NCBI GenBank assembly: GCA_006386115.1
Contig: VFIW01000068.1
Span: 207,203-271,202 of the forward strand
Length of the DNA: 64,000 nt
Direction of reading: 5' to 3'
Source: Globisporangium splendens
Taxonomy: Eukaryota; Oomycota; Peronosporomycetes; Pythiales; Pythiaceae
Below the pieces are notes generated by a model. That model was not told where the DNA came from, did no database searches, and saw only the letters and a program-made list of their open reading frames with translations. Each line of letters opens with the position of its first letter. Position 1 is the stretch's first letter. Position numbers and translations under genes: made by a program. This document shows positions 21,476 to 44,843 of the stretch, one piece after another.

Positions 21476-21487
21476 TCATCCCCCCGT
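21476..21487 (-). promoter_or_regulatory. Putative polypurine tract
   Basis: On the minus strand the sequence just before the 3' LTR is ACGGGGGGATGA. It is purine-rich and correctly placed for plus-strand priming of an LTR element. Confidence 0.6.
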
Positions 21488-21685
21488 AAAGCGATTGGTC
21501 ACGTAGAAACGCGCGCGACCAATCCATCTTGTGTTCTTCTGTGTTCTTTGGTGTTCTTCCGTGTTCGGAGGAACTGGTCACAGAAGGCAGAGCACTGAGT
21601 CTTGCGGGCTCAGTTCTCAGTGTGCGCCGTGCCCAACAGAGAGCTTTCCAGACGCCGCAAGCTGTGCGAGGTGAACCTCGTACAA

Positions 21686-26300: not shown

Positions 26301-27417
26301 GCTCGAGGGTGCCTCGATGCAGTTCTTTCATGAACCGTTTCTGGCTCATGACGGGTAGCGTTACCACTTCCGAAGCGTCCTTCGGAGGGTCTTCTAACGC
26401 CATCTCATGAATATGAGATCCATCCTCATCAGTGACCATGACACTGATGACTTCGCACGAGGAGCCTTGATCAGAGGTCTCCATTGGCGGTACCTTTCCT
26501 TCGTCATCGCTCTTCAGTACAGAGCGATGAGCAACCGAAGTCTGTCCTTTAGACTTTCGGGCGGCTTCTCCATCGAGCATCGTGCTAAGGGGGCCATCGT
26601 ACACCCTTGCATCATGTTCGTTAACCGACAGCGCGTTGCGCGCCGACGGGCGGTTAGCCTTGTTCCGCTTCATAGCGGGGTAACTGATCGATTGTCGATT
26701 CCAATCGATGATCGGCTGGTACTTCTTCAGCCATGGCATTCCAAGGATGACATCGACCTTGTCATCTAAATCCAGCCAAATGAAGTCTCCTTCCATTTGG
26801 CGTCCATCATGCGTGACACGAAGCCGTGTCACGTGTTTCTCCGTCGTGACGGTGGCACCTGTTGCCAACCGCACAGTAATCTTCGACTCGGAGGAACGTG
26901 ATTCCTCCGAAATTACTCTCGCTAGTGCACGGGCGACATGCGATCGAACAAAGTTGTTCGACGCACCCGTGTCTAGCAGTGCCCGCTGAGGGGTCGTAAA
27001 TCCCTCTACGGTTATCTCAAGTTGGATGAGCCGATCTCTCGGCTCCTCCGCAGTCGTGGTAGTCCAGCAGCGCGCGTCATGCACGCTGGGGGCTTGCGTC
27101 TCGTGCACCACGATCACACCAGACGCATATTCGCCAGTAGAGCGCCCCGCGTCTACTGCTGGTTGACGTTTTTTGATTCTTCGCGCGTTGGACGCGAAGA
27201 AGTCGTCCGATGTGTGTCTCGGACGCGGGGAGCGGACTGCGCCGCTCGGCACTCGTATTGAAAGTGCCCCAGTTTCTGGCAGCGGTGGCACCGCAGCTTG
27301 CGCTTGTCGACGGGTCTCTTTGGAGCCGCCGAAGCTTGAACCAACGAGAGATCCATTGGTTCGGATCCACTGTAACGTGGAGGAGGTCTCGCGTGCCGGA
27401 ACTGCGCGGCGCGGCAA
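22822..27417 (-). CDS. pol: pol polyprotein with C-terminal chromodomain
   Basis: One uninterrupted frame of up to 1,531 codons, probably entered by frameshift near 27168. Domains in order: aspartic protease (ALLDTGASNNF), reverse transcriptase (catalytic YFDDV), RNase H (VVCDASDFAIG), zinc-binding integrase N-terminus (HHCC), catalytic integrase core ending HPQTDGQTERVNRTLEDILR, and a chromodomain at the end (RVYRVRWLGYPPDRDTWEP). The chromodomain places it among chromoviruses, where it is thought to guide integration toward modified chromatin. All catalytic signatures I can check are intact. The last 560 bases are overlapped on the opposite strand by another open frame. Confidence 0.92.
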   Translation of the reverse strand: MPRRAVPARETSSTLQWIRTNGSLVGSSFGGSKETRRQAQAAVPPLPETGALSIRVPSGAVRSPRPRHTSDDFFASNARRIKKRQPAVDAGRSTGEYASGVIVVHETQAPSVHDARCWTTTTAEEPRDRLIQLEITVEGFTTPQRALLDTGASNNFVRSHVARALARVISEESRSSESKITVRLATGATVTTEKHVTRLRVTHDGRQMEGDFIWLDLDDKVDVILGMPWLKKYQPIIDWNRQSISYPAMKRNKANRPSARNALSVNEHDARVYDGPLSTMLDGEAARKSKGQTSVAHRSVLKSDDEGKVPPMETSDQGSSCEVISVMVTDEDGSHIHEMALEDPPKDASEVVTLPVMSQKRFMKELHRGTLEQICYIAPQESSNAESAVQRHPLDECFLASSSVMDTDVLDEPTKKERFQAQGWESLKDSPFYGLLKEYEDVFPEEVPSRLPTDKGVRHEIDLKPGTKYCVTRQWPLPREQVKVIDEFFEARRKAGQVRESNSPHCSPTFCVKNATGGWRIVHAFNKLNAATIPAQTPIPRKDVIIDSMQGSTIFSTIDLRDGFYQILMREKGIPFTAVSTPSGMLWEWLVMPQGLTNAPATFNRCVTQLLRPVRDFAPSYFDDVFIHSRASDAASDVEVHKEHLRQLLDLMRKYKLCANIQKCMFGVHEIPVLGCFVGKNGVRPDPEKIKAINDWPVPTSQKDLRKFLGLATYLHKYSQNYAGIIRPLSSLLKKDVDWKWSDECQDAFVKVKSSLMEAPVLAIADHERPFYVVCDASDFAIGCALMQRDDADRERVICYPSRQLKPAERNYPVHDKELLAMKYALTKFRVYLLGSKRFTVYTDHASLRTAVKSPHLSQRMARWLSFFAEYEFDVEYKPGRFNVIADALSRRPDFESKANDSKEDRVMVITRESTPTSSLLDDIKRAYATDSDISRLVAHLSDPSDKSLKALDPAQRARLHRCEMRNDVLYYRIDDSDEPRAVVPNDSDLRNRVLFEYHDAPFRGHPGREKTYLALSRDFYWSHQYKWVRKYVRACEVCQRVKPAPVTNAPLRSLPVPTDCWKSVSMDFIFRLPADSSKKTGILVIVDRFSEMIHLNAVPAIVTAKQTAQIFLDSVFRLHGMPTEIVSDRDPRFTAAFWQELFRLLGTQLKMSTADHPQTDGQTERVNRTLEDILRSYAHSFTHWNECLPLAEFAINNSVHASTGHTPFYVNALRHPRVPSILGGMSPPSVTSPLSGGGVREAAASEQAKSAEISHHHGQATAHAAIVDKDIVTTVLQRQAVTRFIRDSIADAVDGQKEQADKSGRKNTNEFQRNSFVLLSTANLPNRVVSSDSDKLLPRYIGPFKVLERIGDAYALELPPALCLHTTSYVGRLQAYHRHDDSLVSSSSRDRGREGSQAQACGQPRASKAVPRAARASRSSRLARPEVGEPRSPAQRTSADQEDADYSEDAPQSHEQIFPPPAPPLRDSEGNQRWIVEKILAHRDRSSRGKKERVYRVRWLGYPPDRDTWEPAAMLQADVPGLVQQHESRR

Positions 27418-28221
27418 GGGAACGCGTGAAACCGTGCTTGCTTCGCGCTAAGTCTTCCTGAAGCGCCAGAGCGATTGCTTGCTCTAGCGTTTCCGGGTAT
27501 TCCCGGAACAGGTAGGTCTTGACGGGACCATCCACCAAACCTTTCATGAACGTGGCGACTTGCGTCGCCATGTCGATTGGCTCAGACACGATACTTGATA
27601 CCAAGTATCGGGCATGCTGGATATACGCGTGGAGATCGCGTTTATCCTGTCGGATTTCGAGAAATTCCGTGCGAGTACGGAATTCCGACTTTGGTGGCTC
27701 AAAGGCGGCACGGATGTCGCCTTTAAACTCCGAAAGTGTGGAGAAACAACCATGGTCGGCCATTCGGCGACCAAATGCCCAGCTCTTGGCTCTCCCAGCG
27801 AGCTTGGACATTGCGAAATCGACCTGCTGCTCCGGGTCGTAGATTTGTCCGGAGCGAATGGCGGCATCGATTTCGACAAACCATCGGAGGAGAGGCTCAT
27901 TGTCTCCTCCGCCATACTTCGCGACTTCAAGCCTCACAGGCTTTTGTCGTGGGAACTGTACCTGCGCAGGAGCTGCGCGGGTTGCTTCTCTTCCACGGTC
28001 TTCTGCCTCCTTCTGCAGGAACCCGATCGCCGTGAGGCGATGTTGATCCTGCGACAGGGTGGGAAGGATGGCGAACACGGCCTTTTCGCCGATGATCGTC
28101 CTCATCCGTTGGAAGGCACTCCACTCGAGACACTCAAGTGGAGACAATCCTCCCGGTTGATCGTCGCACTCGCGGTTTCCGCGGGTTCGAGATTCATCAT
28201 CGGTTCTTCGTCAGTACTCAT
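27153..28221 (-). pseudogene. gag: gag of the chromovirus, frame broken
   Basis: The gag reading frame starts at ATG 28221 (MSTDEEPMMNLEP). It changes frame near 28110 and continues as a long capsid-like segment (KLAGRAKSWAFG, FMKGLVDGPVKTYLF). It changes frame again between about 27360 and 27445 before SEPMDLSLVQA and a CCHC zinc knuckle (CHRCQKLGHFQYEC). It ends at the TAG at 27153-27155. Retrotransposon gag forms the particle and binds element RNA through the knuckle. The two internal frame changes look like lesions. The final change into pol looks programmed instead (see 27168-27174). Confidence 0.75.
27168..27174 (-). promoter_or_regulatory. Candidate -1 ribosomal frameshift site, gag to pol
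   Basis: The minus strand reads A AAA AAC in the exact X-XXY-YYZ register of the zinc-knuckle frame (codons TCA AAA AAC), about 13 bases before the gag TAG. Slipping back one base enters the pol frame (KKRQPAVDAG). The heptamer and register are seen; function is inferred. Confidence 0.65.
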
Positions 28222-28261
28222 TACTGACGGCTCCCGCTCTGTGGTTGGACGGACCACAAAG

Positions 28262-28269
28262 TGCTACCA
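28262..28269 (-). promoter_or_regulatory. Putative primer-binding site
   Basis: Two bases inside the 5' LTR the minus strand reads TGGTAGCA. That is complementary to the 3' end of a tRNA finishing TGCTACCA, as initiator tRNA-Met does in many eukaryotes. Only eight bases fit, so the primer identity is tentative. Confidence 0.5.
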
Positions 28270-28271
28270 GG

Positions 28272-28694
28272 TGTAACGGGACTCGTTACACGACGTACAC
28301 GTGCGTTGAGGAAGCGCAGGTGAAAGGAAGGGCACAGTGATAACACTGTGTCCAAGGAGAAGGGAGGGAGCTTTGCGCGTTACCGTGCAAATTGAGAAGT
28401 GAATTAAAACGTTAAAGTGCTAACATGCAATCGTAGTGACTGAAACCTACGGTGCCTCTCATTGGTAGATAATCGGATGTCCAGTCCGACTATCATCCAA
28501 TGGGATTAAATCTTAACGGCTTAGTCTTATTGGCTAATATGCAAATGGCTATGTACAGTGTTCATGAGTGACACATATTAATGTGTCTCCAACTGTACGA
28601 CGTGGGTGGGTTCGGAAGAGGTGGTAAAACCCATGTGGGAGAAAACCCACACTCTCCTGACCCGGGAACCCATGTAATGGGTGGCCCAATTACA
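28272..28694 (-). repeat. 5' LTR of the chromovirus
   Basis: 423 bp, same ends and length as the left LTR. It is followed directly by the second GAATC target copy. It should hold the element promoter for the minus-strand transcript. Confidence 0.95.
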
Positions 28695-28741: not shown

Positions 28742-28821
28742 GCGGGCAGTGGGGTTTGAACCCACGAGTGCGAACACAGTAGAACTTGAGTCTACCCCTT
28801 AGATCGCTCGGGCGCGCTGAC
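28742..28821 (-). pseudogene. Degenerate tRNA-Leu(CAA)
   Basis: Matches the tRNA-Leu copies to its right through the D-arm, anticodon arm (CAA) and T-arm. The 3' acceptor strand differs at several positions, leaving two or more mismatches in the seven-pair stem, and one base is missing near the D-loop. It marks the left end of the tRNA array and lies 47 bp from the LTR. Confidence 0.7.
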
Positions 28822-29499
28822 GATCATGATCCAACCAACACACAAAACACATCACAAAATAAACACCAACTAACGCAAACAAAATACAACAACACAACAA
28901 CAAAACAACACACACAACCCTCCTCCACCACATCCACGCGCGCTCGCACTGCCTCTGCCACCGCCTTTCGCGTTTCATCTTCAGAACCTTGGGACGCGAG
29001 CGGGACACAGCGAGCCACGTCCCAACCGCCACTCTTGGTTGGCGTTTGTTGTTTGGAACCGGCTACACCTCGCGCGGTCGGCTCCAAACAACAAACACGC
29101 AGAATTCAGACTCCTCCCGTCGACCTCCGCCGCGCGCGCTGTGGCGGGTCCTTGGCGCCAAGACGTTCCAATGCTAGGCGCCTTTTCGAGGACAGCAACT
29201 CGTTCGGTCGCTGTGTCGCTGGCACACCAGCGGACTGGACCCCTGTCAGAGGCCACAAGTCGCAGGGCCATCAACGAAACCCCCCATAGCCCATACCTCC
29301 TGCGTCAGCGCGCGCGTCCATGTCTCGATGGCGGCGAGGTGCGAAGGCAGGCAGGTAGGCAAGCAAGAGGACAGGTGTGTTCCGGGAGGGTGGACAAGCA
29401 GATGATTGGGGAGTGCGCGTGTATGGCGCGGGGTTCGGTGGGGAAAGAGAAGAGAAGAGACGAAGCGCGAGCAACAGCAAAAGCAAAAGCAAAAGTGAT

Positions 29500-29580
29500 G
29501 TCAGCGGTGGGATTTGAACCCACGAGTGCGAACACAGTAGAACTTGAGTCTACCCCCTTAGACCGCTCGGGCACGCTGAC
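29500..29580 (-). tRNA. tRNA-Leu(CAA)
   Basis: 81 nt. Acceptor stem GTCAGCG/CGCTGAC, anticodon loop CTCAAGT in a perfect five-pair stem, long type II variable arm, T-arm GTGGG-TTCAAAT-CCCAC. The internal B box GGTTCAAATCC is intact, and T-runs (TTTT) follow about eight bases downstream as Pol III terminator. Confidence 0.93.
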
Positions 29581-30281
29581 GATCATGATCCAACCAACAC
29601 ACAAAACACATCACAAAATAAACACCAACTAACGCAAACAAAATACAACAACACAACAACAAAACAACACACACACACACAACCCTCCTCCACCACATCC
29701 ACGCGCGCTCGCACTGCCTCTGCCACCGCCTTTCGCGTTTCATCTTCAGAACCTTGGGACGCGAGCGGGACACAGCGAGCCACGTCCCAACCGCCACTCT
29801 TGGTTGGCGTTTGTTGTTTGGAACCGGCTACACCTCGCGCGGTCGGCTCCAAACAACAAACACGCAGAATTCAGACTCCTCCCGTCGACCTCCGCCGCGC
29901 GCGCTGTGGCGGGTCCTTGGCGCCAAGAGTTCCAATGCTAGGGAACACTTTTCGAGGCAGCCAACTCTTGCGGTCGCTGTTTGGTCGCTGGCCCACACCA
30001 GCGCGACGGGACCCCTGTCAGAGGCCACAAGTGCAGGGCCATCAACGCGAAAACCCCCATAGCCCTTACATAATGCGCAGCGCGGGGCCTGTCTCGATGG
30101 GGCGAGGTGGCGAAGGCAGGCAGGTAGGCAAAGCAAGAGGACCACGGTGATGTTAAGCGGAGGGTGGACACAAGCAGATGATTGGGGAGTGCGCGTGTAT
30201 GGCGCGGGGTTCGGTGGGGAAAGAGAAGAGAAAGAGAAGAGACGAAGCGCGAGCAACAGCAAAAGCAAAAGCAAAAGTGAT

Positions 30282-30362
30282 GTCAGCGGTGGGATTTGAA
30301 CCAACGAGTGCGAACACAGTAGAACTTGAGTCTACCCCCTTAGACCGCTCGGGCACGCTGAC
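30282..30362 (-). tRNA. tRNA-Leu(CAA), T-stem variant
   Basis: Same 81-nt sequence as the copy at 29500 except one base in the 5' T-stem strand (GTTGG instead of GTGGG), which creates a mismatch. It may be weakly functional. Confidence 0.85.
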
Positions 30363-31056
30363 GATCATGATCCAAACAACACACAAAACACATCACAAAA
30401 TAAACACCAACTAACGCAAACAAAATACAACAACACAACAACAAAACAACACACACAACCCTCCTCCACCACATCCACGTGCGCTCGCACTGCCTCTGCC
30501 ACCGCCTTTCGCGTTTCATCTTCAGAACCTTGGGACGCGAGCGGGACACAGCGAGCCACGTCCCAACCGCCACTCTTGGTTGGCGTTTGTTGTTTGGAAC
30601 CGGCTACACCTCGCGCGGTCGGCTCCAAACAACAAACACGCAGAATTCAGACTCCTCCCGTCGACCTCCGCCGCGCGCGCTGTGGCGGGTCCTTGGTGCC
30701 AAGACGTTCCAATGCTAGGCGCCTTTTCGAGGACAGCAACTCGTTCGGTCGCTGTGTCGCTGGCACACCAGCGGACTGGACCCCTGTCAGAGGCCACAAG
30801 TCGCAGGGCCATCAACGAAACCCCCCATAGCCCATACCTCCTGCGTCAGCGCGCGCGTCCATGTCTCGATGGCGGCGAGGTGCGAAGGCAGGCAGGTAGG
30901 CAAGCAAGAGGACAGGTGTGTTCCGGGAGGGTGGACAAGCAGATGATTGGGGGAGTGCGCGTGTATGGCGCGGGGTTCGGTGGGGAAAGAGAAGAGAAGA
31001 GAAGAGAAGAGAAGAGACGAAGCGCGAGCAACAGCAAAAGCAAAAGCAAAAGTGAT

Positions 31057-31137
31057 GTCAGCGGTGGGATTTGAACCAACGAGTGCGAACACAGTAGAAC
31101 TTGAGTCTACCCCCTTAGACCGCTCGGGCACGCTGAC
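31057..31137 (-). tRNA. tRNA-Leu(CAA), T-stem variant, next to LINE 1
   Basis: 81 nt with the same T-stem mismatch as the copy at 30282. Its 5' end is 20 bp from the insertion point of LINE 1. Confidence 0.85.
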
Positions 31138-31142
31138 GATCA

Positions 31143-31157
31143 TGATCCAACCAACAC
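31143..31157. repeat. Target-site duplication of LINE 1, left copy
   Basis: The 15 bases TGATCCAACCAACAC recur exactly at 38675-38689. The first T may belong to the element end. Confidence 0.9.
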
Positions 31158-31239
31158 TTCTCAATTTGCCGGCTACCCCTCAAGTTGAATCCAAGAACCC
31201 CCTCCAAGCTCTCAAGCCCCCTCAGCCTCAAGTTTCCCC

Positions 31240-33858
31240 ATGGAAAGCCCAGCTACCCCAACCCTCCCCCAACCCTCGACTGTCGCACCAGCCTCGATTT
31301 CTGGGTTCACACCCAGTACCTCGACTGGTACCACTGTCGACCCATCCCCGTCCGAAAATTTGGACCTCGCCGATCCTCGCCCAAGCGAAAGCGTGCTTGC
31401 GCTCCCAGCGATGGATCCTGTTTCTGGCGACCAATCTCCTGTGACCGACCCAGCCGCCGGCGCTTCCACTGATTCGGAAGAAAAAGTGGACGAGCCGATG
31501 GATCCTGCAGTGAATGCAAGCGTGTCGAACGACGACGGCTCTGGCGATGTCCCGATGTTGCCTCCGTCTGCGAACTGGACTCGTCCTGAACACCATGCCG
31601 GCAATTCGGTGCCGACTCCTCCTGCATCCTCGGCTTCTGCTGCGGACACGCGCCTGAGCATGGCCGACGTCCTTCGCCTGCAAGAAGACCTCCGCCGCGA
31701 CCGAGCCGTCGTTGACGCTTCTCGTCGCCGCGTGGAAACTCCGAAGCCCCTCGCTGTCGACATCGAGGCCATTGAACGCCAGTACACTGTTGGTGGTGAC
31801 TGGTCCAACATTGCGTCACGATTGGAGCAAGCGCGTCCTTACCAGCTTCCGAGAGCCAAGTATGACATGGTGATCGAGACTGGTAGGGCCCTCGCGAAGA
31901 CTCCCGTGCAAAAGATCTTGGCGTCGCTTGCGAGTTCCGGTCACGGCAACGCAGCGCTCGAAGAGCTGTACAAGCGATTCGAGATCGGCCAGATCTCCAA
32001 GCTTCCTGGTGGCAACTTGCGCGTCAAGGTCAAGTCGAAGGATGCCTGCGTGCGTTTGGAGCGCACCAAGGTGAACATCCTTGGAGGTGTCTTCACCTTC
32101 AAGGAGTTCGACATCCTCGGCGACAAGTACTACCTCGACATCTCGAACGTCGACTCGGACACGAACACAGACCTCATCCTTGAACGTCTGTTCATTCTCG
32201 GATGCAAGCCTGTGTACGACACCTTCCGCGAAGTGAACCTCGCAACGGGTGTAACGTCAGCGACGTGGCGTGTGTACTTCTTGTCAAGTTCGTGTCCAAG
32301 TGCGCTGATCATCAACAGCGGTGTCTGCGATCAAGTGATCTTCGACAACAAGCTTCATCCTGCCCACGGCAAAAACGCACCGTTCCGCTCGGAGCGTCTG
32401 CCTTTCGGCTATCGCTCTGCACAGGCTCTTGAGCTTGGAGTGCCTGGTGGCGTGTTTCCGTTCCCTGGCTCGTTGTCTGAGCCAACCCTCAGAAGTCAGA
32501 AGCCAAACCAGCACGGTTCTGAGAAATCGTACGCCCAAGCCGCAGCAGCTACTCCGAAGCAACCTTCGCCGCCGAGTGCGACCAAGGGACAAGTGAATGG
32601 AGATTCTCAGCCCCAGCGAGGAGCCCAGCATGGCCAGATTTCTGGTCTAATTGTGCCGAGAAAACCTGGCAGTACTGCCTCGGGTTTATCCGTGGGTACC
32701 TTCAACGGATCAACGGGGAAGATCACACCGCCTGCCAGCCCTCGAGTTGGTCCGCAGAAGCCTCTTCTCTTGACCAACGGCGACAGTGATGGGTTCCAAC
32801 CCGTGACCAAGAAGAACAGCAAGAAGCGATCGAGGAACGGCGCCGACTTCGCCAACATGGTTGCCAAGCAACAGCCGCAGCCTCTTGACGGAATCGCGAC
32901 GTCCAACTACTTCAACGTACTCCAATCGGTGGAGGTGGCTTTCGAAGCGAAGAAAGTGACCGCGGACAAGAAGTACGGCATTCGATACCAAGTTCTGCCG
33001 ACTGAAGTCAAACGACCAGAGGCGTTGAAGGAGTCCAAGGAATCGGCCTTCTTCATCGAGAAGCACCACACGAAAGTGAGGAAGTCGCCGAAAGCTTCTC
33101 ACATCGTGGAAGTGGCCGAGTCGATGGCGAACGATGAGAACACTGCTCTTCTCAGCGTTCTACCAGACCGATTGACCCACGCCGACACGAAGGTTGACGC
33201 TGCGTGCAAGATCGTTGCGAACGCCACCAACGCTGATCATGTGACCAAACACGCTGTCGAGAACCCGCTCGCGTTCAACAGTGCTCTGTCGCTCAAGATG
33301 GCAGGGACTGGACACGAGATGCAGGAGCTCGCTCAGCTTCACATGATCAACCGCGTCTTGAGTGCTTCCGACCCAAGTGAAGACACGACGTTCAGCACGA
33401 AGTGGAAGAAGTTTATGAAAACCAAGGTTCCGTCGACGCGAGGGGATCTGTTCCACACCGCTGCAAAGTGGTGGACAACGTCGGAGCCAGTCCGAGAACT
33501 GTCGCGAGCGACCAAGGCACTGAGTCTCTTTGAGCTCATGCTGATGTCCATCGCCCCGACAATCTTCGCGAATGACCACTGGATCCAGTACCTGACTGGG
33601 ATGCCGGTGCCGTGGATCCCTGCACACCACACCCGTCTGCTGCATCCCAACACGCTGCTGATGCTGCTGCGCTCAGAGCTTGGAGCGTTGTGCATGAAGC
33701 AATGGGCCGAAGTGCAGTGGCAAGGACGCATTCTTGAGGACCTGGAAGCTCTTCGCGACCTCGAAGACTACTACCCAGATGACGCGTCGGTCTTGAAGCT
33801 CCAGGTGGTCGATGGAAGCGTGGTGATGGTAGCGGGCAGCCTCGCTGTCAGTTGCTAA
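31240..33858 (+). CDS. LINE 1 ORF1 protein
   Basis: A clean 872-codon frame from the first ATG of the element. The N-terminus is Pro/Ser/Thr-rich. The middle (RPYQLPRAKYDMVIETGRAL, GGNLRVKVKSKDACVRLE) is conserved in the second LINE of this window, which supports coding. The C-terminal part (WWTTSEPVRELSRATKALSL, GMPVPWIPAHHTRLLHPNTL) is also shared. ORF1 proteins of LINEs bind RNA and chaperone reverse transcription; no named RNA-binding domain is evident here. Confidence 0.85.
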   Translation: MESPATPTLPQPSTVAPASISGFTPSTSTGTTVDPSPSENLDLADPRPSESVLALPAMDPVSGDQSPVTDPAAGASTDSEEKVDEPMDPAVNASVSNDDGSGDVPMLPPSANWTRPEHHAGNSVPTPPASSASAADTRLSMADVLRLQEDLRRDRAVVDASRRRVETPKPLAVDIEAIERQYTVGGDWSNIASRLEQARPYQLPRAKYDMVIETGRALAKTPVQKILASLASSGHGNAALEELYKRFEIGQISKLPGGNLRVKVKSKDACVRLERTKVNILGGVFTFKEFDILGDKYYLDISNVDSDTNTDLILERLFILGCKPVYDTFREVNLATGVTSATWRVYFLSSSCPSALIINSGVCDQVIFDNKLHPAHGKNAPFRSERLPFGYRSAQALELGVPGGVFPFPGSLSEPTLRSQKPNQHGSEKSYAQAAAATPKQPSPPSATKGQVNGDSQPQRGAQHGQISGLIVPRKPGSTASGLSVGTFNGSTGKITPPASPRVGPQKPLLLTNGDSDGFQPVTKKNSKKRSRNGADFANMVAKQQPQPLDGIATSNYFNVLQSVEVAFEAKKVTADKKYGIRYQVLPTEVKRPEALKESKESAFFIEKHHTKVRKSPKASHIVEVAESMANDENTALLSVLPDRLTHADTKVDAACKIVANATNADHVTKHAVENPLAFNSALSLKMAGTGHEMQELAQLHMINRVLSASDPSEDTTFSTKWKKFMKTKVPSTRGDLFHTAAKWWTTSEPVRELSRATKALSLFELMLMSIAPTIFANDHWIQYLTGMPVPWIPAHHTRLLHPNTLLMLLRSELGALCMKQWAEVQWQGRILEDLEALRDLEDYYPDDASVLKLQVVDGSVVMVAGSLAVSC

Positions 33859-33898
33859 ACCAACCTCGACTCAGCCCTCGTGGAACAACATCAGTGTC

Positions 33899-36800
33899 TT
33901 GACCGTGAACACTAATGGCATCAAAAACAACGGTCATCTGTTTATCGACAACATGGTATCGAAATATTCGATATCGTGTGTCCAGGAAACCAAGTTCAGC
34001 GACAAGCAACACCTCTCGACCTTCAAGTTTCACCTCGACTCAAGCTTCAAGCACCGAGTCTTTGTGAATGACCCGAACTCCCAGTTGGATCGACCCACAC
34101 GCGGGCGTAGTGGCGGTGTTCTCACTGTTCTTCGCTCTGACGTGCCGGGTTTCAAAACGGCTGCGGAACAACCAAGCCTCGCCGTCCCAGGTCGGTACCT
34201 CGTAGTGAAGCTGATGGTGAGCGACGCTCCCGTCTACATTCACAACGTGTACGCTCCAGTAGACCGACAGGAAAAGCAACAATTCTTCTCGAGTCTCTCG
34301 ACCGAAGGCTTTGAAGATCAAGCGACACACCTTGTGTTGGGAGATCTGAACACGCCGTTGGATCCCAGACTCGACTCTTCGTCTCCAGATCTGCGCTACG
34401 ACCCGGCGCGATCGAGCTGCCTTGCGTGGCTTGCTCGTCTTGGCGTTGTGGATGCGTGGCGCGTCCACCATGACACGAGGCGAGTCTTCACTGGTCCCTT
34501 GCCTCGCAAGAACCGGTTGGACTATATTCTTCTCTCGGAGGCGTTCTATGAACGTTTCTACGACGACTCCAAATACTTCGTTCCCCAGAACGCTGGTGAC
34601 CACCTTGCTCACTGTGTGAGTATCAAGACTGGCTCCCAGCTGCATGGACGCGGGTACTGGAAGTTTCCCCGTTACCTGCTGGAGTACCCAGTGGTTGTTT
34701 CTGCGATCGAGAAGGAAGCGGAAACAGTCCGAGATCAGCTCCGTGGCTCTGCCAGTCCTGGTCAAATCTGGGAGAGGTGGAAGACGAGAATCAAGACCCA
34801 GCTGCAAGATGTCCAGAAGAAGCTCCGCATGCAAGACACAGCCGCGGTTGAAGAGGCTCGTGCTTCGCTCGACCAGGCTGCTGCACGCTACCGTGAGTCT
34901 TCCACCGAGAACAACCGCAGCCAGTTCGACGACGCGATGAAGATTTACAAGGAGACAGTCACCAGAACCAGCCAGTTTAACCAAGACAATGCGTTTGACT
35001 TCCAGGCAGCCAACTCCGAGAAATCGACCAAGCACTTCTTCCGTCCGCTGGACACGAGTCTGAGGAAGGTATCGATTGAAGAGGTGGTGACACCGAGTGG
35101 CAGTGTCTCGTCGAACCCTCAAGAGATATCTCTCCGATTCCTCGAGCACTAGGGATCCGAGATGGGAGATCCCGACAGTCCAGCAGGAACAGCTCCTCCA
35201 CCAGACGAAGCCAAGCAGCAAACTCTCATTGACTCGATCATCCGTGTGCTGTCGGAGCTGGAACGGGAGATCTTGAATGCTCCTGTGACGGCTTCCGACC
35301 TTGCGGACTCGATTAAGCACATGAAGGCGAGCTCGGCACCTGGTATGGACGGCTTGACAGCTGGCTTTTACCAGGTCGCTCCCGACGTGTTCGGTGAATG
35401 TCTCAGCATTGTCTTCAACGACCAGCTTCGTCGTGGCATCCTCCTGCCATCCCAACGCAAGTCAGCGGTCGTGCTCCTCTACAAGAAGGGATCAAGAGCC
35501 GAGCCTGGCAACTACCGACCGATCACGCTGATGCCAGTCGACGTGAAAGCTCTGTCCAAGACTCTCACGTTCCGACTCCAGTCCGTTGTGTGTAGTCTCA
35601 TCCACACGGACCAGAAGGCATTCGTGAAAGGCAGGTCGATCCACCATCACGTTCGCTTCCTCGCTGATCTCCAGGACTTGATCACGAACCTCGACGACGA
35701 AGCGTACGCGATGTTCCTGGACTTCGAGAAGGCTTTCGATCGTGTGAACTGGGACTACATGTTCCGAGTGCTTGAGAAGATGGGATGCGGCTCTGCGTTT
35801 ATCCAGTGGGTGAGGCTTCTGTACACGCGACCGCAAGCACACCTTCTCATCAACCAGAACATCCAACCCGCGCTTCATCCGGCGCGAGGTGTCAAACAGG
35901 GTGATCCTCTGTCGGCATTGCTCTTCCTTCTGGCAATTGAGCCTCTTGGGAACTTGCTGCGATCGCACGAAGAGTATGGCGTGTGCCTCAACGCAGACCA
36001 CACTGCCACCAGCATGTTCTTTGCGGACGACACCACACTTCTTGGCGGTTCAATCCCGAGTGTCCAAGCACAACTGGAGCTCGTGGATGACTACTGCAAG
36101 GGATCCGGTGCGAAACTCAACCTCAGCAAGTCGATGCTGATGGCGCTGAATCGCAACCAAGACTGCCCTCGCCTGCCTGGCGTCCAAGTGCTGGGTCGTG
36201 CAGAGTCGGTGAAGTTCCTTGGTATCCCGTTCAGCCAGTCTCCAGTCAATGACGCCATCGTGTCTTTCCTCGATAACCGCTTCTACGACGGCTTCAAGGC
36301 GTGGTACAGGCGAGCTCGAACACTGCGAGGGCGACTTCTGGTGGCTCAGACAATGGTCCTGTCTCGACTGTGGCACTACGCGCAGCATGTAGTGGTCCCT
36401 CGGCAAGTCGTGAAGAGGTGGCAGTCGATGTTGAACAAGTTTGTCCTGAGTCGGAAGCACGACCGAGAAGACACACACATCCAGCTGATCCCGAAGGAGT
36501 TTCTCTACTTGCGGCGAAGTGACGGTGGTCTGGGCATCCCGAGCATCGAAGCTCATCTGAAGCGGCAACGACTCCAGCTGCTGCTTCAGTTTGTGCGTGC
36601 AGCCACGACTCCCGAGGAGAGAAACTGGACGACAGCAAGCTGTGAGGTGGTCAAGTCTGTTCTACCACCCGTCGGAAGGTGCAGAGCGCTCGACTTTCTC
36701 ACAGTATCGCCGCTGCGGCATGGCTCGATGATCAAGTGGCAGAAGACTTCAGGGTGGTGGCGAGCGACCTGGACGATGTGGTACACGGTCAGCTGGGAGA

Positions 36801-37969
36801 TCACGTGGCGCAACCTTCCGCCAGACGAAGGCGTGAGGGAGTGCCTCGCTCAGCCGATTTGGTTCCATGCAGATGCGCACCTCCACTACGAGCAGACTCC
36901 TCGGACTGCAACCGCCAACGCTCATCGGAGGTGCCTTGGTATGTGTCCCGAGCCGCAGCGAAGCTTCCGGCTCCACATCTCGAGAGTCTTCGGTTTGCGA
37001 TCACTGGCGGACTTCATGCGTGGTGGAACGACATGGCCAAGCTGCAACGACTTTGTAGCAGCTCACCTTGATCGCACGCTGGCTCACATCTCTGTCGGCA
37101 TCCAGTCGCAATGGCTTCGGTCGTTGTACAAGGAAGCGACACAGATTGTGGACCGACTGGGAACACTACCACCGCGAGTTGACTCAAGTCTTCGTCTCCT
37201 TCCGCATCTTGGTTGCACCAGTGGCACGAAGGTGTGTGTGTTTCCGGCCATTCCGAGAAGCTCGCTTCTTCGTCTGGTGTGGACACCAACGCCACCGTCG
37301 AAAAGCCACCCAATGACGCTTCACAGTCAGAGCGTTGACGAAGACGAAGTGAAACGGTTCGTGAAGTACGGCAAACACCTTCGCCAGCTCCTGCTTCCGA
37401 TCTTTGAAGACCTGCAGTTTCGCGTGGCGTTCCGACTGCTTCCTGTGCGCTCTCGGTTCTTCTTTCTGCGAGACACCGACCCAGGCATCACGTACTGCAT
37501 CCAGGACGGCTGCAACGCAGTTGAGACCGAGCAGCACTTGTTCTTTGAGTGTGCGCTTGCCTCGCGAGTGTGGGAGCACCTGTTGCTTCTGATGCGGCCA
37601 TTCTTTCGAAGTCAGCCAACGTGGACGATGATAGCAACGGCGCGGAAGCCGTCGATTCACGAAGACTGGAAGGAATGCGAAGACGTCATCTGTGACGTTT
37701 GGCACACTCTCCGCGCAGTGGCCCTCCACTTCCTCTGGACGGATCGCAATCGGTGCTTGTTCGACGGAAGACAACCCACTCCGACTGCTCCTGCGCTGTC
37801 GGTGATCTTCGCAACGATGAGTGCGCATACCCGCCACTACATGAGGAAAAAATACGAGTCAGTGCAAGTGACAACACTGCAAAAGATCATTCAAGAGATG
37901 AAGACGTACCAGCCATTTGGAGATTTCGTGGCAACTCATACAACCACGTTCGAGATTCGGCAACGGTAA
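33899..37969 (+). pseudogene. LINE 1 ORF2: endonuclease and reverse transcriptase, one nonsense codon
   Basis: One frame from about 33860 to 37969, interrupted once by TAG at 35150-35152 (context LEH*GSEMGDP). The endonuclease has VNTNGI, QETK, GDLNTPLDPR, LDYILL and AGDHLAH, so all catalytic positions of the APE type are present. The reverse transcriptase has SSAPGMDGL, FLDFEKAFDRV, GVKQGDPLSALLF and the catalytic FADDT. A zinc-binding zf-RVT region lies near 37500 (CIQDGCNAVETEQHLFFECA). There is no ATG at the start. The frame is already open across the ORF1 stop, so translation probably depends on reinitiation after ORF1. L1/Tx1-like affiliation is likely. Confidence 0.88.
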
Positions 37970-38674
37970 GCCGCCAACTCTGCCTCAAAGCTCCAATCTC
38001 GACCTCCACAGCTGTTGCCGTAGTCTCATCAGCAGCGTCGCCGCTTGCTCCTTCCTCGCTGGAGGAGCCCCTTGAGGACTCCTCATCGGATGCTGACACC
38101 ACTGAAGAGCTGCTCTCTGATTCTCCTGAGTCGGAGATCTCACGTTGGGAATCCCCATCAATCGAGCCTATGCCCTCCGACACCTCCGCCTTACGGCGCG
38201 GCTCAGCCGATTGCACTATGGACACGGTATCAGGTTCCTCCCTCCCTGAGTACTCTTCCTCAGAAGCACCAGCGACCATCACTCTCCAGTCGGCACCTGC
38301 TCTCGACGACGCAAATTGACGAATGAGCCCAAGCCTGCAAGAAACAGATAAATTACGGATTCACAGCGGTTAAATTACGGAAGTTTTTCTGTGATTTCCA
38401 AGTTTGGCCATGGCGGGGATCGAACCCGCGACCTCCAGGTTGGGAACCCGGTACTTTACCATTTGAGCTGCATGACCATTCGCAATCAGCGATCATTTGC
38501 TCAAACCTGGTTGTTCCAAGAAAAAAAAAAAAAAATTCGACGGTCCACAGGTATACACCCGCGGTATCCAGGAGTATACATATTTAGTGTATAGTATGAT
38601 ATTTAAATAGTCTTCAGCTAAGTAGATTGAGTAGTCACTCTGTCTAATTCTAGTAATATAGACAACCTTTCAAC
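37970..38674. other. LINE 1 3' region
   Basis: Noncoding end of LINE 1: a Ser/Glu-coding remnant to about 38319, a tRNA-Gly on the opposite strand, a run of 15 A at about 38521-38535, then 140 bp of AT-rich sequence up to the target duplication. Confidence 0.6.
38406..38477 (-). tRNA. tRNA-Gly(CCC) inside LINE 1
   Basis: 72 nt. Acceptor GGTCATG/CATGGCC, D-loop with GG, anticodon stem CCGGG/CCTGG around TTCCCAA (anticodon CCC), T-arm GCGGG-TTCGATC-CCCGC. One D-stem pair is mismatched. B box GGTTCGATCCC is good, but no T-run follows within about 20 bases, so termination and function are unsure. Confidence 0.75.
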
Positions 38675-39363
38675 TGATCCAACCAACACACAAAACACAT
38701 CACAAAATAAACACCAACTAACGCAAACAAAATACAACAACACAACAACAAAACAACACACACACACACAACCCTCCTCCACCACATCCACGCGCGCTCG
38801 CACTGCCTCTGCCACCGCCTTTCGCGTTTCATCTTCAGAACCTTGGGACGCGAGCGGGACACAGCGAGCCACGTCCCAACCGCCACTCTTGGTTGGCGTT
38901 TGTTGTTTGGAACCGGCTACACCTCGCGCGGTCGGCTCCAAACAACAAACACGCAGAATTCAGACTCCTCCCGTCGACCTCCGCCGCGCGCGCTGTGGCG
39001 GGTCCTTGGCGCCAAGACGTTCCAATGCTAGGCGCCTTTTCGAGGACAGCAACTCGTTCGGTCGCTGTGTCGCTGGCACACCAGCGGACTGGACCCCTGT
39101 CAGAGGCCACAAGTCGCAGGGCCATCAACGAAACCCCCCATAGCCCATACCTCCTGCGTCAGCGCGCGCGTCCATGTCTCGATGGCGGCGAGGTGCGAAG
39201 GCAGGCAGGTAGGCAAGCAAGAGGACAGGTGTGTTCCGGGAGGGTGGACAAGCAGATGATTGGGGAGTGCGCGTGTATGGCGCGGGGTTCGGTGGGGAAA
39301 GAGAAGAGAAGAGAAGAGAAGAGACGAAGCGCGAGCAACAGCAAAAGCAAAAGCAAAAGTGAT

Positions 39364-39444
39364 GTCAGCGGTGGGATTTGAACCCACGAGTGCGAACACA
39401 GTAGAACTTGAGTCTACCCCCTTAGACCGCTCGGGCACGCTGAC
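39364..39444 (-). tRNA. tRNA-Leu(CAA)
   Basis: Identical to the copy at 29500, with an intact T-stem. It lies right of the LINE that splits the array. Confidence 0.93.
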
Positions 39445-40132
39445 GATCATGATCCAACCAACACACAAAACACATCACAAAATAAACACCAACTAACGCA
39501 AACAAAATACAACAACACAACAACAAAACAACACACACAACCCTCCTCCACCACATCCACGCGCGCTCGCACTGCCTCTGCCACCGCCTTTCGCGTTTCA
39601 TCTTCAGAACCTTGGGACGCGAGCGGGACACAGCGAGCCACGTCCCAACCGCCACTCTTGGTTGGCGTTTGTTGTTTGGAACCGGCTACACCTCGCGCGG
39701 TCGGCTCCAAACAACAAACACGCAGAATTCAGACTCCTCCCGTCGACCTCCGCCGCGCGCGCTGTGGCGGGTCCTTGGCGCCAAGACGTTCCAATGCTAG
39801 GCGCCTTTTCGAGGACAGCAACTCGTTCGGTCGCTGTGTCGCTGGCACACCAGCGGACTGGACCCCTGTCAGAGGCCACAAGTCGCAGGGCCATCAACGA
39901 AACCCCCCATAGCCCATACCTCCTGCGTCAGCGCGCGCGTCCATGTCTCGATGGCGGCGAGGTGCGAAGGCAGGCAGGTAGGCAAGCAAGAGGACAGGTG
40001 TGTTCCGGGAGGGTGGACAAGCAGATGATTGGGGAGTGCGCGTGTATGGCGCGGGGTTCGGTGGGGAAAGAGAAGAGAAGAGAAGAGAAGAGACGAAGCG
40101 CGAGCAACAGCAAAAGCAAAAGCAAAAGTGAT

Positions 40133-40213
40133 GTCAGCGGTGGGATTTGAACCCACGAGTGCGAACACAGTAGAACTTGAGTCTACCCCCTTAGACCGCT
40201 CGGGCACACTGAC
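40133..40213 (-). tRNA. tRNA-Leu(CAA), next to LINE 2
   Basis: As the copy at 29500 but with one change in the 5' acceptor strand that leaves a G-U pair. Its upstream flank is cut after five bases by the second LINE. Confidence 0.9.
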
Positions 40214-40404
40214 GAAAGGGGGGGGGCAGCGAGATCGGGTATCCAGCACACGTTCCAACTTCTGGTACGGATCAGGGAAGTGGCCCTGTCTCTGTGCCAA
40301 CTCAACCCAAGAATCCAGCACGGTCGCCAGCGACATGCGTACCCACGACCGATGATGGGATGACAATCCAGCTACGCGCCAAGACCACGCATGCAACCAA
40401 CTGC

Positions 40405-40560
40405 AACGACACCCAGGCAACAGCGTATCCCGACTCACGTCAGGATACACAGGCAGCTATGAACCCAGACGCACGTCAGGATACACAGGCAGCTGTGAAC
40501 CCAGACACGCGTCAGGGGTGCGCAAGCAGCTGTGAACCCAAACGCACGACAGGGTACGCA
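40405..40560 (+). repeat. Tandem repeats of about 36 bp in the LINE 2 leader
   Basis: Three to four degenerate units of the form CGTCAGGATACACAGGCAGC plus TATGAACCCAGACGCA. They sit just before and into the ORF1 start. Such arrays are common in LINE 5' regions as promoter modules; that role is inferred. Confidence 0.7.
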
Positions 40561-42700
40561 GACACCTACCTTGCGTTCCCTGCTTCAACGGACCAAAGAG
40601 ATTCGACGCGACCACGTTGAACCTCCGGAAAAGAAGCGGGTTGAACTGCCGAAGCCGCTTGCTGCAGACATCGAAGCCATCGATGCGCTGTATGAAGCGG
40701 GAGGTGACTGGAGCGCGCTTGCGCCACGGATCGATCTAGCCCGTCCGTATGTGTTGCCCCGAGCACGCTACGTGATGGTGATCGAGACTGGACAAGCTTT
40801 CCAGCGCACCTCGCCCAACAAGCTCCTTGCATCTTTCTCTAATGATCACGGCAACGAAGTCGTCCAGCACCAGATGGACTTGAATCAACTTGGTCAGCTC
40901 ACCAAGATGCCGGGAGGAAATCTCCGCATCAAAGTCAAGACCAAGGAAGCCTGTTTCCGCCTGGAACGCCAAGAGGTCACCATTCTCGGAGGCAAGTACC
41001 GGTTCAGGGAGTTTGACATCCTTGCCGATCGCTTCTACATCGATGTGTCCAGTGTCGACAGTGATGTGGATGCGGATCTCATGCTCAAGCGTTTCTACGA
41101 GCTTGGTGCGCAACCGATCTACGGTACGTTCCGAGACGTGAACCTCGAAGCGGTGATGACGACTGCCACCTGGCGCGTGTACTTCCGTTCGAACGAATGT
41201 CCGTCGCAACTCTTCGTGGATGGCTCTGTTTGCGACCAGCTCGCGTTTGCTGGACGCATCCACCCCGTCCACGCGAAGGATGCACCGTTCCCAGCCCAGC
41301 GCATGCCGTTTGGATACCGCTCACGATATGCGCTGGTACTCCAAGAGCCGGTGACGGCAGCCAGCACACGGACAGCCACGCAACAGCGTCAGTCACCTCC
41401 GCAGCAAGTGCGGACGTTTGCTGATGTCGTTGCCCAGCAACCGAGAGCGACGTCGTTGCAGCTCGCGATTCGGCAAGATGCCATCGTCCAGCAAGATGCA
41501 TCGTCAACTCGGCCACCGACGAATCGAACACCCAGTGAACTCTCGCTGAGCACGAGCGGGTCGGTGATGTTGTCGCCGTCTGGGAGTCCAAAGCCCACGC
41601 TCAAGCAACTACCGCCACCACCTCCTCCTTCCAGCGAGAACACTGCTGGCTCCAAGAAGAAGGGCAAGCGGACGCGTAGTGCAACGGACTTTCCCAACGT
41701 GCTCATGAAGAGTCGACCGAAGCCTCTTGTGGGAGTTGCGACGAGCAACTACTTCGACGTGCTCAGTCAAGTCGAGGTTGATTTCGACTGTTGTTCAGCC
41801 ACTCTAGATGAGAAACTTGGTCCGCGCTTCCAGATCGTGCCTCGCAAGGTGAAGGCTCCGGCCCAGCTCAGCGAGTCGAAGGAAGCCAGCCACTTCCTTA
41901 CCAAACACCACACCAGTGTCGTGAAGACCGAGAAGCCAACGCCAATCCAAGAGATCGTCGCGGAAATGGAGACGACTGAAGAGACAGCCGATCTCCAGCT
42001 CCTACCGGATCGTCTTGCGGTTGCTGACTCCAAGGTCTCGGGATCGCGCAAGGTGTTGCGAAACACCAACAACGCGGACGTGGTGGTGTACTATGCGTCG
42101 TGCTCGACGCCCCTCGCTTTCAATACCGTGCTACTCCAAGAGATGGCTGCCACCAGTTCCCATGTCAGCGAGTTGGCACATCTGCACCTGATCAACCGCG
42201 TACTGAGCGCGACAGATCCGGGTGAGTCGACCACGTTTGCGAACAAGTGGGCCAAACATCTCGGTGACAAAGTTCCAAAGAAAAGAGAGGAACTGTTCCA
42301 ACGTGTGGCTCAGTGATGGAAAGTGTCGTCAGACAGCACAAAGGAGCTTGTGCGCGCAACCAGAGCGCTGGCTCTCTTCGAGCTCATGCTCATGTGCACG
42401 GCACCGCGAGTGTTCGAGAAGGACTACTGGCTCCAGCATGTGACCGGTATGTCAGTCGCATGGATCCCAGCGCACAACCGCCGCCTGCTTCATCCCAACT
42501 TGCTCTTGGTATTGTTGAGATCCAAGCTCGGTGCGATCTGCTTCCAACTGTGGAAGGATATTCAGTGGCAGGGCTCCTTGCTGGACGACCTCGAAGCCCT
42601 TCGTACCGGGGACGGCTTTTATCCGGATGACGCAAGCGTGCTCCAACTACAGAAGGTGGACGATCAGCTCACACTCGTGGCTGGTCCACTCAGTCTGAAT
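40532..42700 (+). pseudogene. LINE 2 ORF1, one premature stop
   Basis: Open from 40532 to the TGA at 42314-42316, then open again in the same frame to about 42700. The protein parallels LINE 1 ORF1 (RPYVLPRARYVMVIETGQAF, GGNLRIKVKTKEACFRLE, SVAWIPAHNRRLLHPNLLLV). The TGA stands where LINE 1 encodes Lys in AAKWW. The frame ends by running into unrelated sequence, not at a native stop. Confidence 0.75.
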
Positions 42701-43264
42701 TCCTACAGTGCTGTTCTTTGCAAATTTGGGCCACTTGATTTGGTTCCACAAAGATTTCATATTTGGCCCTAAAAGAGACAGAAATTCTCAAATTTGTCCT
42801 TATTTCTGTCTGCAACGGCGCGTCCCTTCACACGTTGAAGTGCGCGAGCCGTCGCCCTCGTATAATGCCAACAGCAGACAGAGGCAATGGGACCCACGCA
42901 TGCGCCAGCGACGCCGCGGACCAAGGAGGCGGTGCTCTTCTCGTCGGACGCGCACGCACCGCTGCCGCTCAAGTACGTCGTGCTGCTGCTGTGCAGCGCT
43001 CTGGCGCTCGGCTCCACGTACTGCTACCACAACCCGTCCGCGCTCAAGAACCAGCTTCAGCAGCACTTCAGCGCCACGCTGCAGAAGGACCAGTATGAAG
43101 TTCTCTTTGTATCCTTTCCCTCGTCGCTTTACATGCGTGTGTTGTACTCGGCACATGCATCCATGTGCATGCTTGATGATGTGTTTCCTATGATCATTAC
43201 GTTATCCTTTCATCATGATTTGCTTTCTCCGATGTCTTCTGTGTGCCATCTTGTCACTCTTTCT

Positions 43265-43537
43265 GTAATGGGGCCTCCCATTACATGGGTTCCCGGGTCA
43301 GGAGAGTGTGGGTTTTCTCCCACATGGGTTTTACCACCTCTTCCGAACCCACCCACGTCGTACAGTTGGAGACACATTAATATGTGTCACTCATGAACAC
43401 TGTACGTAGCCATTTGCATATTAGCCAATAAGACTAAGCCGTTAAGATTTAATCCCATTGGATGATAGTCGGACTGGACATCCGATTATCTACCAATGAG
43501 AGACACCGTAGGTTTCAGTCACTACGATTGCATGTTA
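43265..43537 (+). repeat. Truncated LTR fragment of the chromovirus family
   Basis: Reverse complement of the last about 273 bp of the chromovirus LTR, starting TGTAATGG and breaking off at CATGTTA. At every site where the two full LTRs differ it agrees with the left one. It lies within the first intron region of the MFSD1-like gene. Confidence 0.9.
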
Positions 43538-44843
43538 TCTTTATCTTTATAAGGTGAGGTATATTTAGGTTCATCGTCGCGACCTACAATATCCATTCTC
43601 CTAACTAATCTTCATTACGAATTTCATAAAGGAGTGCAAATGTGTCTATAGCGCGGATTGCACTAGATCACTTCTAAGTGCTAAATAATCTTTGACCAGG
43701 ATGGCATGTTCTCTTGGTCCTATGTGAGGCTGCCTTCTGTTGTCCAATGACCTTGGGTCTTCCGAACATCTCACAAGCCAATGCATGACGTCGTTGTCAA
43801 GATCCTGGGTGAGATTGTTGAAAGCAGCTCTTTGAGTTGGGAAGTGAACCTGCGTTGAGGTTCTGGTGTCCATGGCTAGGTTGGCGGCTGAGTCCGTCAT
43901 CTTGTTGAAGGCACGGTAGTGATGGTACCATCCTCGGATGTCGATGCAATCCGCGAGTCGTCGACTTGTCTGGTATAAACGTGCCAATCGGTGCTGTCGA
44001 GGGGACCGATGCATTCGCTGTTGGGAGATAATGAGTGCACTGTCTCCAATCACGTACAACGGTTCGAAGTGACTGCGTTGGGCTTCTCGGAGTCCGTGTA
44101 TGAGACCCCAGTACTCGGCAAAGTTGTTGGTCGTGTCCTTCCTGCTATACGCCATGCTGGCGGCCCAAATTAAACTGGCTGTGTGCGAGTCCTTATGGAC
44201 ACGCACGATAATGGATCCAGTCCCTCCTGGTCCTGGATTGCCGCGTGATCCACCATCGAAAAACAACAGGTAAACGCCGCGAATATCACTTGGAGTCAAG
44301 GGGATGGCGTCGGTTTGGCTGAGAAAGCAGTCGACATAGACCTTGAGAACTGCTGCAACCGTGTGACCGTCAGAGTCTCCAGCTTGCGCTTCAGCGAGTC
44401 GTGTGAGGTTTCGCATTCCTGCCTCTAATCTGGTCATCATGATCGCCATCTCAGCAGTCGATTCGATTGGATCCGAATCCATGCGTCGCAGATGCGCACA
44501 CCAAATGGCTTGTATGAGCGACGCGCTCATATATCGCCACAGCATGTGTGCGACGGGATAGAGATGATCTTGGAGATGTTCATTGGAGAACTTGTGTCCG
44601 ATAATGTGTCTCTTGATCGTGGTCCATGCATGCCTTGGAGTATCTGGTAGATCCAGACTGAAGATCCAGATTGCGGGGTCGTGACCAGGAGTGATTCCGA
44701 TCTTCGCCCATAGCGCATAAAAGTAGTTCCACACGAGTTTGGCTTTCGGACACTCCCAGAATAGATGTTGAACAGAAGATTGGACAACTTGGGAGCATTC
44801 GGAGATCAGCGATATCAAGCATTTCAGGTTCGCCGATGCGTAG
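43538..44843 (-). mobile_element. LINE 3: 5'-truncated LINE with RNase H
   Basis: A minus-strand frame of 390 codons (44818-43646) with a zf-RVT end (SSVQHLFWECPKAKLVWNYF) and a complete RNase H domain (FFDGGSRGNPGPGGTGS, NNFAEYWGL, IGDSALI). The 3' end carries a short tail of ATAAAG-type repeats that abuts the LTR fragment. Encoded RNase H separates it from LINE 1 and LINE 2, which lack it. Its 3' end is shared with the SINE at 45739. Confidence 0.8.

Follow-up and report, generated by a model that had tools for sequence, protein, structure and literature searches.

L1-like LINEs of the oomycete Globisporangium splendens with junctions at a fixed nucleotide position in tRNA genes

The window analysed here is a stretch of 64,000 nts from the oomycete Globisporangium splendens (assembly GCA_006386115.1, contig VFIW01000068.1, positions 207,203 to 271,202), in which two related long interspersed nuclear elements (LINEs), LINE 1 and LINE 2, adjoin genes of a tRNA-Leu(CAA) array. 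Based on LINE junctions collected throughout the G. splendens assembly (53.3 Mb, 195 contigs), we estimate a probability of about 0.92 that two sister lineages of L1-like LINEs, which encode an apurinic/apyrimidinic (AP) endonuclease, insert into tRNA genes at one nucleotide position. The initial annotation of the window had proposed that the flanks of tRNA genes are targeted. tRNA genes are indeed the targets, but the site is the A box inside the gene, with the LINE 5′ end normally at +1; judged by its junctions, the LINE family is directed to the tRNA gene itself and not to its flank. The combination of a fixed nucleotide position in a multicopy gene with the existence of empty sites places these elements among the target-specific LINEs, with site specificity of the R1/Tx1 type.

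LINE junctions at tRNA genes

LINE ends were collected with LINE-derived queries without selection for tRNA, two of which included about 25 bp of tRNA or flanking sequence. In the whole-genome searches, the best 40 of 80, 59, 43, 85, 81 and 75 candidates were scored, and the resulting set is large and incomplete. The LINE 5′ motif was matched 60 times in the fetched DNA, and 57 matches were kept after removal of three that were not followed by a LINE (C164:228383 and C164:235602, both inside long terminal repeats (LTRs), and C119:665404). An antisense tRNA called by ARAGORN directly precedes the LINE in 42 of these 57 5′ ends. These tRNAs belong to 14 isoacceptors, namely Ala-AGC (11), Met (6), Asn (5), Thr-UGU (4), Thr-AGU (3), Ile (3), Lys (2), Thr-CGU (2) and Arg, Tyr, Ala-CGC, Leu-UAA, Leu-CAA and Ser (1 each), and form 22 contig-by-isotype combinations. 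The gap between tRNA and LINE is 0 bp in 33 cases, 1 bp in four, 2 bp in three, 5 bp in one and 18 bp in one (LINE 1 of the window), with the proviso that the 5′ boundary given by ARAGORN can be off by one or two bases. Ten further 5′ ends are preceded by the tail of another LINE followed by a tRNA-derived 14-mer. Among the other five, two lie at +1 of a tRNA-Gly-like gene, detected with Rfam, which in turn lies within a LINE, that of copy L040 follows a Tyr-like sequence called by neither ARAGORN nor Rfam, and two (C111:1853 and C182:148634) follow a bare tRNA-start fragment. Two 5′-truncated copies outside this count, L016 and L022, also lie at +1 of tRNA-Phe. The genome-wide distances, proposed as a check in the initial annotation, show a strong clustering of LINE ends at diverse tRNA genes on many contigs. 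A random antisense junction is estimated to fall 0 to 5 bp from a tRNA 5′ end about once per 9,000 insertions, assuming that all 1890 candidates of a first-look tRNA search, 63 of which were scored, are tRNA genes; the observed number is 41 out of 57.

The 3′ ends point to the same position from the other side. The LINE tail was matched 67 times, and 66 matches were counted after removal of a spurious one (C70:59354) in which the sequence is not a LINE tail. In 61 of the 66, the LINE continues directly into the antisense of a tRNA-start 14-mer. There are 15 distinct 14-mers, corresponding to Phe (20), Ala-AGC (10), Met (5), Ile (5), Lys (4), Thr-AGU/CGU (4), Asn (3), Leu-UAA (2), Tyr-like (2) and six singles. 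Fifty-five agree at every base with the start of a tRNA that was called in one of the fetched loci, four have one mismatch (the two Tyr-like, a Thr variant and a Leu-like 14-mer), and two, TCTGGCTTGGCCGA and GCGCGAGTAGCTCA, were counted on the A-box pattern only. An on-target copy reads, in the orientation of the LINE, as a complete antisense tRNA, the LINE from its 5′ end ACTTCTCAATTTGC to its tail CTTTCAAC, and the antisense of tRNA nts 14 to 1, beyond which lies either the tRNA's own 5′ flanking sequence or a LINE inserted earlier.

Perfect duplications of 14 to 16 bp were found in 12 of the 15 copies for which both ends are available (one row of the underlying table, a match to an LTR of the window, was dropped). 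For 11 copies, the flanks were joined and used to search for units without an insertion, one row being uninformative (L023, in which the flank is another LINE), and empty units with best matches of 99-100% were recovered for Leu-CAA, Ile, Asn, Thr-AGU, Ala (two array types) and Leu-UAA. In addition, 38 of 42 LINE-adjacent tRNAs are identical to the reference copy of their isotype, in a comparison that leaves out the outer two bases at each end and in which the reference itself is LINE-adjacent for isotypes without a free copy. As a small control, nine LTR copies of an unrelated Ty3/gypsy element, from a search in which the best 40 of 240 candidates were scored, had no tRNA within 400 bp on either side according to ARAGORN and Rfam.

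Several observations weigh against a uniform insertion into tRNA genes. Five of the 66 3′ ends are off-target (C114:29880, C129:578006, C151:90400, C46:8683 and LINE 1 of the window), and three of the 15 two-ended copies (L019, L020 and L085) have no duplication. Outside the 57 counted 5′ ends, no tRNA was found at L035, which is 5′-truncated, or at L073, a family-2 copy whose match starts late, and the guessed 5′ stretches of other family-2 copies (L087-L090) have neither the 5′ motif nor a tRNA. Furthermore, some of the array copies arose by duplication or may be alleles, hence the independent events are fewer than the copies.

Two loci have a composite structure. Copy L019 (C122:24065) has a tRNA-Thr(CGU) on its 5′ side, and an Ala 14-mer with its flank on its 3′ side; it is likely a recombinant between two LINE copies of different arrays. 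In C111:1853-28385, LINE 5′ ends recur at about 17.8 kb (1853/19688 and 10549/28385), which suggests a segmental duplication including the LINEs.

Proposed insertion mechanism and alternative explanations

The junctions suggest a nick position, an order of strand cleavage and a transcription start. The LINE endonuclease would nick the sense strand of the tRNA gene in the A box, between A14 and residue 15, at the motif TRGCTCA|R in family 1, the lineage of LINE 1, and GCCCGA|G or GGCCGA|G in family 2, the lineage of LINE 2. The 3′ end freed at A14 would then prime the reverse transcription of the LINE RNA (target-primed reverse transcription), and the opposite strand would be cut at +1. A cut at +1 combined with a nick after A14 would yield a 14-bp duplication consisting of tRNA nts 1-14, so that the tRNA gene would be restored whole. 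This regeneration may allow the LINE to multiply with little damage to its host. The rebuilt target would stay open to repeat insertion, leading to head-to-tail stacks of LINEs separated by a 14-mer.

The position of the junction could alternatively be fixed by the transcription machinery of the tRNA gene: RNA polymerase III factors (TFIIIC/TFIIIB) would bring in the LINE complex, the geometry of which would set the site, as proposed for the Dictyostelium element TRE5-A. TFIIIC binds the A box and TFIIIB sits beside +1. Tethering agrees with a position relative to the gene that is constant across isoacceptors, and with a putative nick in the A box and second cut at +1; moreover, excerpts of a study of TRE5-A report that this element requires the B box and contacts TFIIIB (PMC5006619). 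However, off-target 3′ ends of family 1 keep a slight resemblance to the A box (TGA or TG after the tail in 4/4), and the classes of A box are split by lineage. Together, these two observations favour a direct reading of the DNA, and tethering as the sole explanation appears rather unlikely, although the two may act together.

That the arrays are merely permissive, a caveat of the initial annotation, has very little probability. Wide insertion followed by survival chiefly in tRNA arrays, in which damage would do no harm, agrees with the many copies in tandem arrays, some of which were amplified with them (as in the C111 duplication), but it was rejected because the junctions are base-exact, or nearly so, at the same tRNA position in 14 isoacceptors. 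Nor would survival put the duplication at nts 1-14, and the nine LTR copies of the small control lack nearby tRNAs. Still less credible is a role of the tRNA as cargo, borne at the 5′ end of the LINE and dispersed with it. Some copies do have a tRNA-Gly-like gene as a passenger in their 3′ region, but the adjacent tRNA differs among close LINE copies and equals the neighbouring uninserted members of the array, and the idea was rejected as contradicted by the empty sites.

The core promoter of oomycetes is described in passages of PMC3599244 as an initiator (INR) and a flanking promoter region (FPR) with the consensus YCAYTYY, 2 nts and MWTTTNC. LINE bases 1-14 conform to this pattern, with the adenine of the INR as LINE base 1. 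The part of the INR+FPR supplied by the LINE fits in 56 of the 57 5′ ends, and the full 16-mer is present in only 19. The base at −1 is a C in 50 of the 57, mostly the complement of G1 of the tRNA. The LINE RNA would start at the first base of the element, beside the tRNA start, and this probably occurs from an INR+FPR-type initiator, judging from the match to the consensus. The LINE-side motif is also present in the LTRs of the Ty3/gypsy element of the window.

Stacks with the order LINE, 14-mer, LINE (10 of the 57 5′ ends) would arise by repeat insertion into the rebuilt tRNA. Alternatively, the 3′ junction of an older LINE, which resembles an A box, could itself be the insertion site. The newest copy could lie either next to the tRNA or outermost, and stacked copies may record the order of insertion. 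A tRNA-Gly-like gene was found in the 3′ region of LINE 1 of the window and in five of ten scanned loci (L012, L013, L015, L016 and L028), and in L012 and L015 another LINE lies at +1 of the carried gene. A tentative joint reading, for which the odds are somewhat below even, brings these features together. The A box would be read as a two-letter code, one lineage using class I tRNA genes and its sister class II. Each insertion would rebuild the tRNA and complete the LINE promoter, the complement of tRNA G1 supplying the C before the initiator A. The RNA of each copy would then start exactly at its first base, the tRNA would stay open and ordered stacks would build up, while some elements would bring their own tRNA-Gly as a portable landing pad.

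Two LINE lineages and related elements

The ORF2 (second open reading frame) of copy L014 contains the Pfam domains Exo_endo_phos (AP endonuclease) and RVT_1 (reverse transcriptase, RT), and the best solved relative of ORF2 is the human L1 ORF2p (E 7e-58, compared with 2.5e-24 for R2). By domain content and RT similarity, the elements are of the L1-like AP endonuclease (APE) type. No RNase H was matched by Pfam in this ORF2 at an E-value of 0.01, and ORF1 has no Pfam match at the curated cut-off. No DDE transposase was found either, since according to Pfam ORF2 has the endonuclease and RT domains only and ORF1 has none. Some copies (L014, L018, L025 and L028) retain long open ORF1 and ORF2, hence recent activity is plausible. 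A 3′-terminal stem-loop was considered, for which GTCTA/TAGAC or CCGTA/TACGG pairing is possible in both tail types; the folding energies are near those of shuffled sequences (z of −0.9, −1.7 and −0.5) and the structure is not claimed.

Family 2 has the same 5′ end as family 1 and a similar tail, ending in ACACTTTAAC. Its five known 3′ ends lie at Leu-UAA (two, on one contig), a Ser-like start, a Leu-like start and one off-target site, such that four of the five are at class II A-box 14-mers, and its two full 5′ ends adjoin tRNA-Leu(UAA) (L084) and tRNA-Ser(GCU) (L085). In family 1, 57 of 61 3′ ends are at class I 14-mers of the GCTCA type, four are off-target and none is at class II. In a tree of RT sequences, family 2 (f2_L084, P0047 and P0051; support 100/99) lies outside a 19-row group (100/99) that comprises family 1, P0037 of Peronospora matthiolae and P0023. 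The rows of this tree are the LINE family and its database relatives, and only the separation of family 2 from the 19-row group was used in view of the long basal branches. Because family 1 groups with proteins of other species, the split between the two families is probably older than the host species. Within family 1, a single subfamily (8 rows, 100/100) has copies at Ala, Asn, Phe and Thr, indicating that targeting is not tied to the isotype. In protein searches in which the 7988 and 7994 best-sharing candidates were scored, relatives of ORF1 were found in Phytophthora, Peronospora, Plasmopara, Pythium and Globisporangium, which suggests that the LINE family is widespread in oomycetes, tRNA targeting being seen here in G. 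splendens. Among viral contigs, no relative with DNA context was found.

Insertion near tRNA genes is known from other elements, which are compared here through passages of the cited open-licence PubMed Central (PMC) papers. The TRE5 elements of Dictyostelium are likewise APE-type non-LTR retrotransposons found at tRNA genes of many kinds. However, they insert about 50 bp upstream (PMC5006619), whereas the G. splendens junction is at +1, with a gap of 0-2 bp in 40 of the 42 tRNA-adjacent 5′ ends (5 and 18 bp in the others), and the duplicated bases belong to the tRNA gene. The nearest published position found is that of Dp_NLTR-A of Dictyostelium purpureum, 2-6 bp upstream of the first tRNA nucleotide (PMC5006619). 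This element differs by its RNase H domain, no counterpart of which was found in the G. splendens ORF2, and the phrase ‘target site duplication’ is absent from the main text of that paper. Dewa, NeSL-1_TV, LIN15_SM and LIN25_SM are also non-LTR elements with a specificity for tRNA genes or the spacer between them, the targets being the tRNA-Leu spacer, tRNA-Pro, tRNA-Arg and tRNA-Glu (PMC3706591, PMC4640811). Each is reported from one kind of tRNA, and the NeSL/LIN relatives are discussed in the same papers alongside elements with a restriction-like endonuclease, in contrast to the many isotypes and the AP endonuclease of the G. splendens family.

The A box itself is the target of the Dada DNA transposons, which insert at tRNA nts 8-13 (PMC8869645, PMC3706591), but these use a DDE transposase, duplicate 6-7 bp and stay inside the tRNA gene. 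In oomycetes, the Utopia LINEs are similarly site-specific for small-RNA genes, in this case those of the U2 small nuclear RNA (snRNA), and the disrupted U2 genes lack their first 38 bp (PMC4640811). They differ by their target and by a restriction-like endonuclease; in the window, no U2 snRNA was matched at Rfam gathering scores, and the LINE junctions are at tRNA genes. The consulted sections of a chromosome-level study of P. infestans describe large tRNA arrays and mention no LINE targeting (PMC9584435). In the open-licence PMC passages covered, neither a tRNA-targeting LINE of oomycetes nor a LINE cutting at A14 across isotypes was found. Thus tRNA-targeting LINEs are known, and an isotype-general, gene-preserving insertion at the A box is apparently new with respect to this literature. 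LINEs with a specific target site lend themselves naturally as models of both target-primed reverse transcription and the RNA-templated insertion of genes. The G. splendens family combines an L1-like endonuclease with a single short and almost universal motif that gives it access to many isotypes, and its target gene remains whole. Since its sister lineage has a different target class, the specificity can be mapped by comparison.

The tRNA-Leu array of the window

The array comprises five tRNA-Leu(CAA) genes on the minus strand called by ARAGORN, of which the third and the fifth adjoin the LINEs (Table 1) and the others lie at 29499-29580, 30281-30362 and 39363-39444. Both LINEs are in head-to-head orientation to their tRNA, as initially annotated. 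LINE 1 does begin just upstream of the 5′ end of the third gene, at 18 bp and not 20 bp, and LINE 2 abuts the 5′ end of the fifth with a gap of 0-1 bp instead of 3 bp. LINE 1, the copy behind the original idea of flank targeting, is itself an off-target insertion: it is a family-1 element that landed in the tRNA-Leu flank. Its reported target duplication in the 5′ flank of the tRNA is perfect over 15 bp, and the final two bases of the 5′ copy could equally belong to the LINE. The use of intact array units as proof of the junction also held: the joined flanks of LINE 1 match uninserted units over 119-120 bp, at 29541-29660 (100%), 30323-30442 (99%) and 28783-28901 (97.5%) in addition to the unit given in Table 1. 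The initiator-like block of LINE 1 fits the FPR and the LINE part of the INR, the first base of the INR not being a Y, and ORF2 is split by an in-frame stop at 35150-35152. LINE 2 is a 5′-truncated family-2 element at +1 of tRNA-Leu(CAA); compared with its full-length relative L084, it has lost about 262 bp of the 5′ end as well as its 3′ part.

Table 1. Features of the tRNA-Leu array and of the two LINEs, in window coordinates
Feature	Position	Strand	Remarks
tRNA-Leu(CAA) adjoining LINE 1	31056..31137	-	ARAGORN; Rfam 45.2 bits
Target duplication of LINE 1, 5′ copy, 15 bp, TGATCCAACCAACAC	31143..31157	+	Off-target site in tRNA flank; empty sites
Initiator-like block at LINE 1 5′ end, ACACTTCTCAATTTGC	31154..31169	+	LINE base 1 is the A at 31156
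LINE 1, family 1	31156..38674	+	Starts ACTTCTCAATTTGC; ends uncertain by 2 bp
LINE 1 ORF1, 872 aa	31240..33858	+	Without Pfam domain
LINE 1 ORF2 region	33899..37969	+	AP endonuclease and RT in intact relatives, e.g., L014
tRNA-Gly(CCC)-like gene inside LINE 1 3′ region	38405..38477	-	Rfam 55.5 bits; anticodon via relatives L016 and L028
Conserved 3′ tail of LINE 1, ending in CTTTCAAC	38617..38674	+	
Target duplication of LINE 1, 3′ copy, TGATCCAACCAACAC	38675..38689	+	
Intact array unit, LINE 1 empty site (100%)	39405..39524	+	
tRNA-Leu(CAA) adjoining LINE 2	40132..40213	-	ARAGORN; Rfam
LINE 2, family 2	40214..42710	+	96.5% to L084, match from window 40213 to about 42710

The array is adjoined by a Ty3/gypsy-type LTR element with a chromodomain (21053-28694, minus strand), the LTRs of which are 423 bp long and 99% identical. 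These LTRs contain TCACTTCTCAATTTGC, an INR+FPR-like 16-mer in common with the LINE 5′ end. The stretch at about 43265-43640, which follows the truncated LINE 2 on its downstream side, resembles, by eye, a further copy of the same LTR. Finally, a tRNA-like stretch at about 45733-45812, which contains the B-box-like GGTTCGAGTCCC and is not called a tRNA by Rfam, is similar by eye to the flank that follows the Met 14-mer of L059 and is perhaps a tRNA-derived short interspersed nuclear element.

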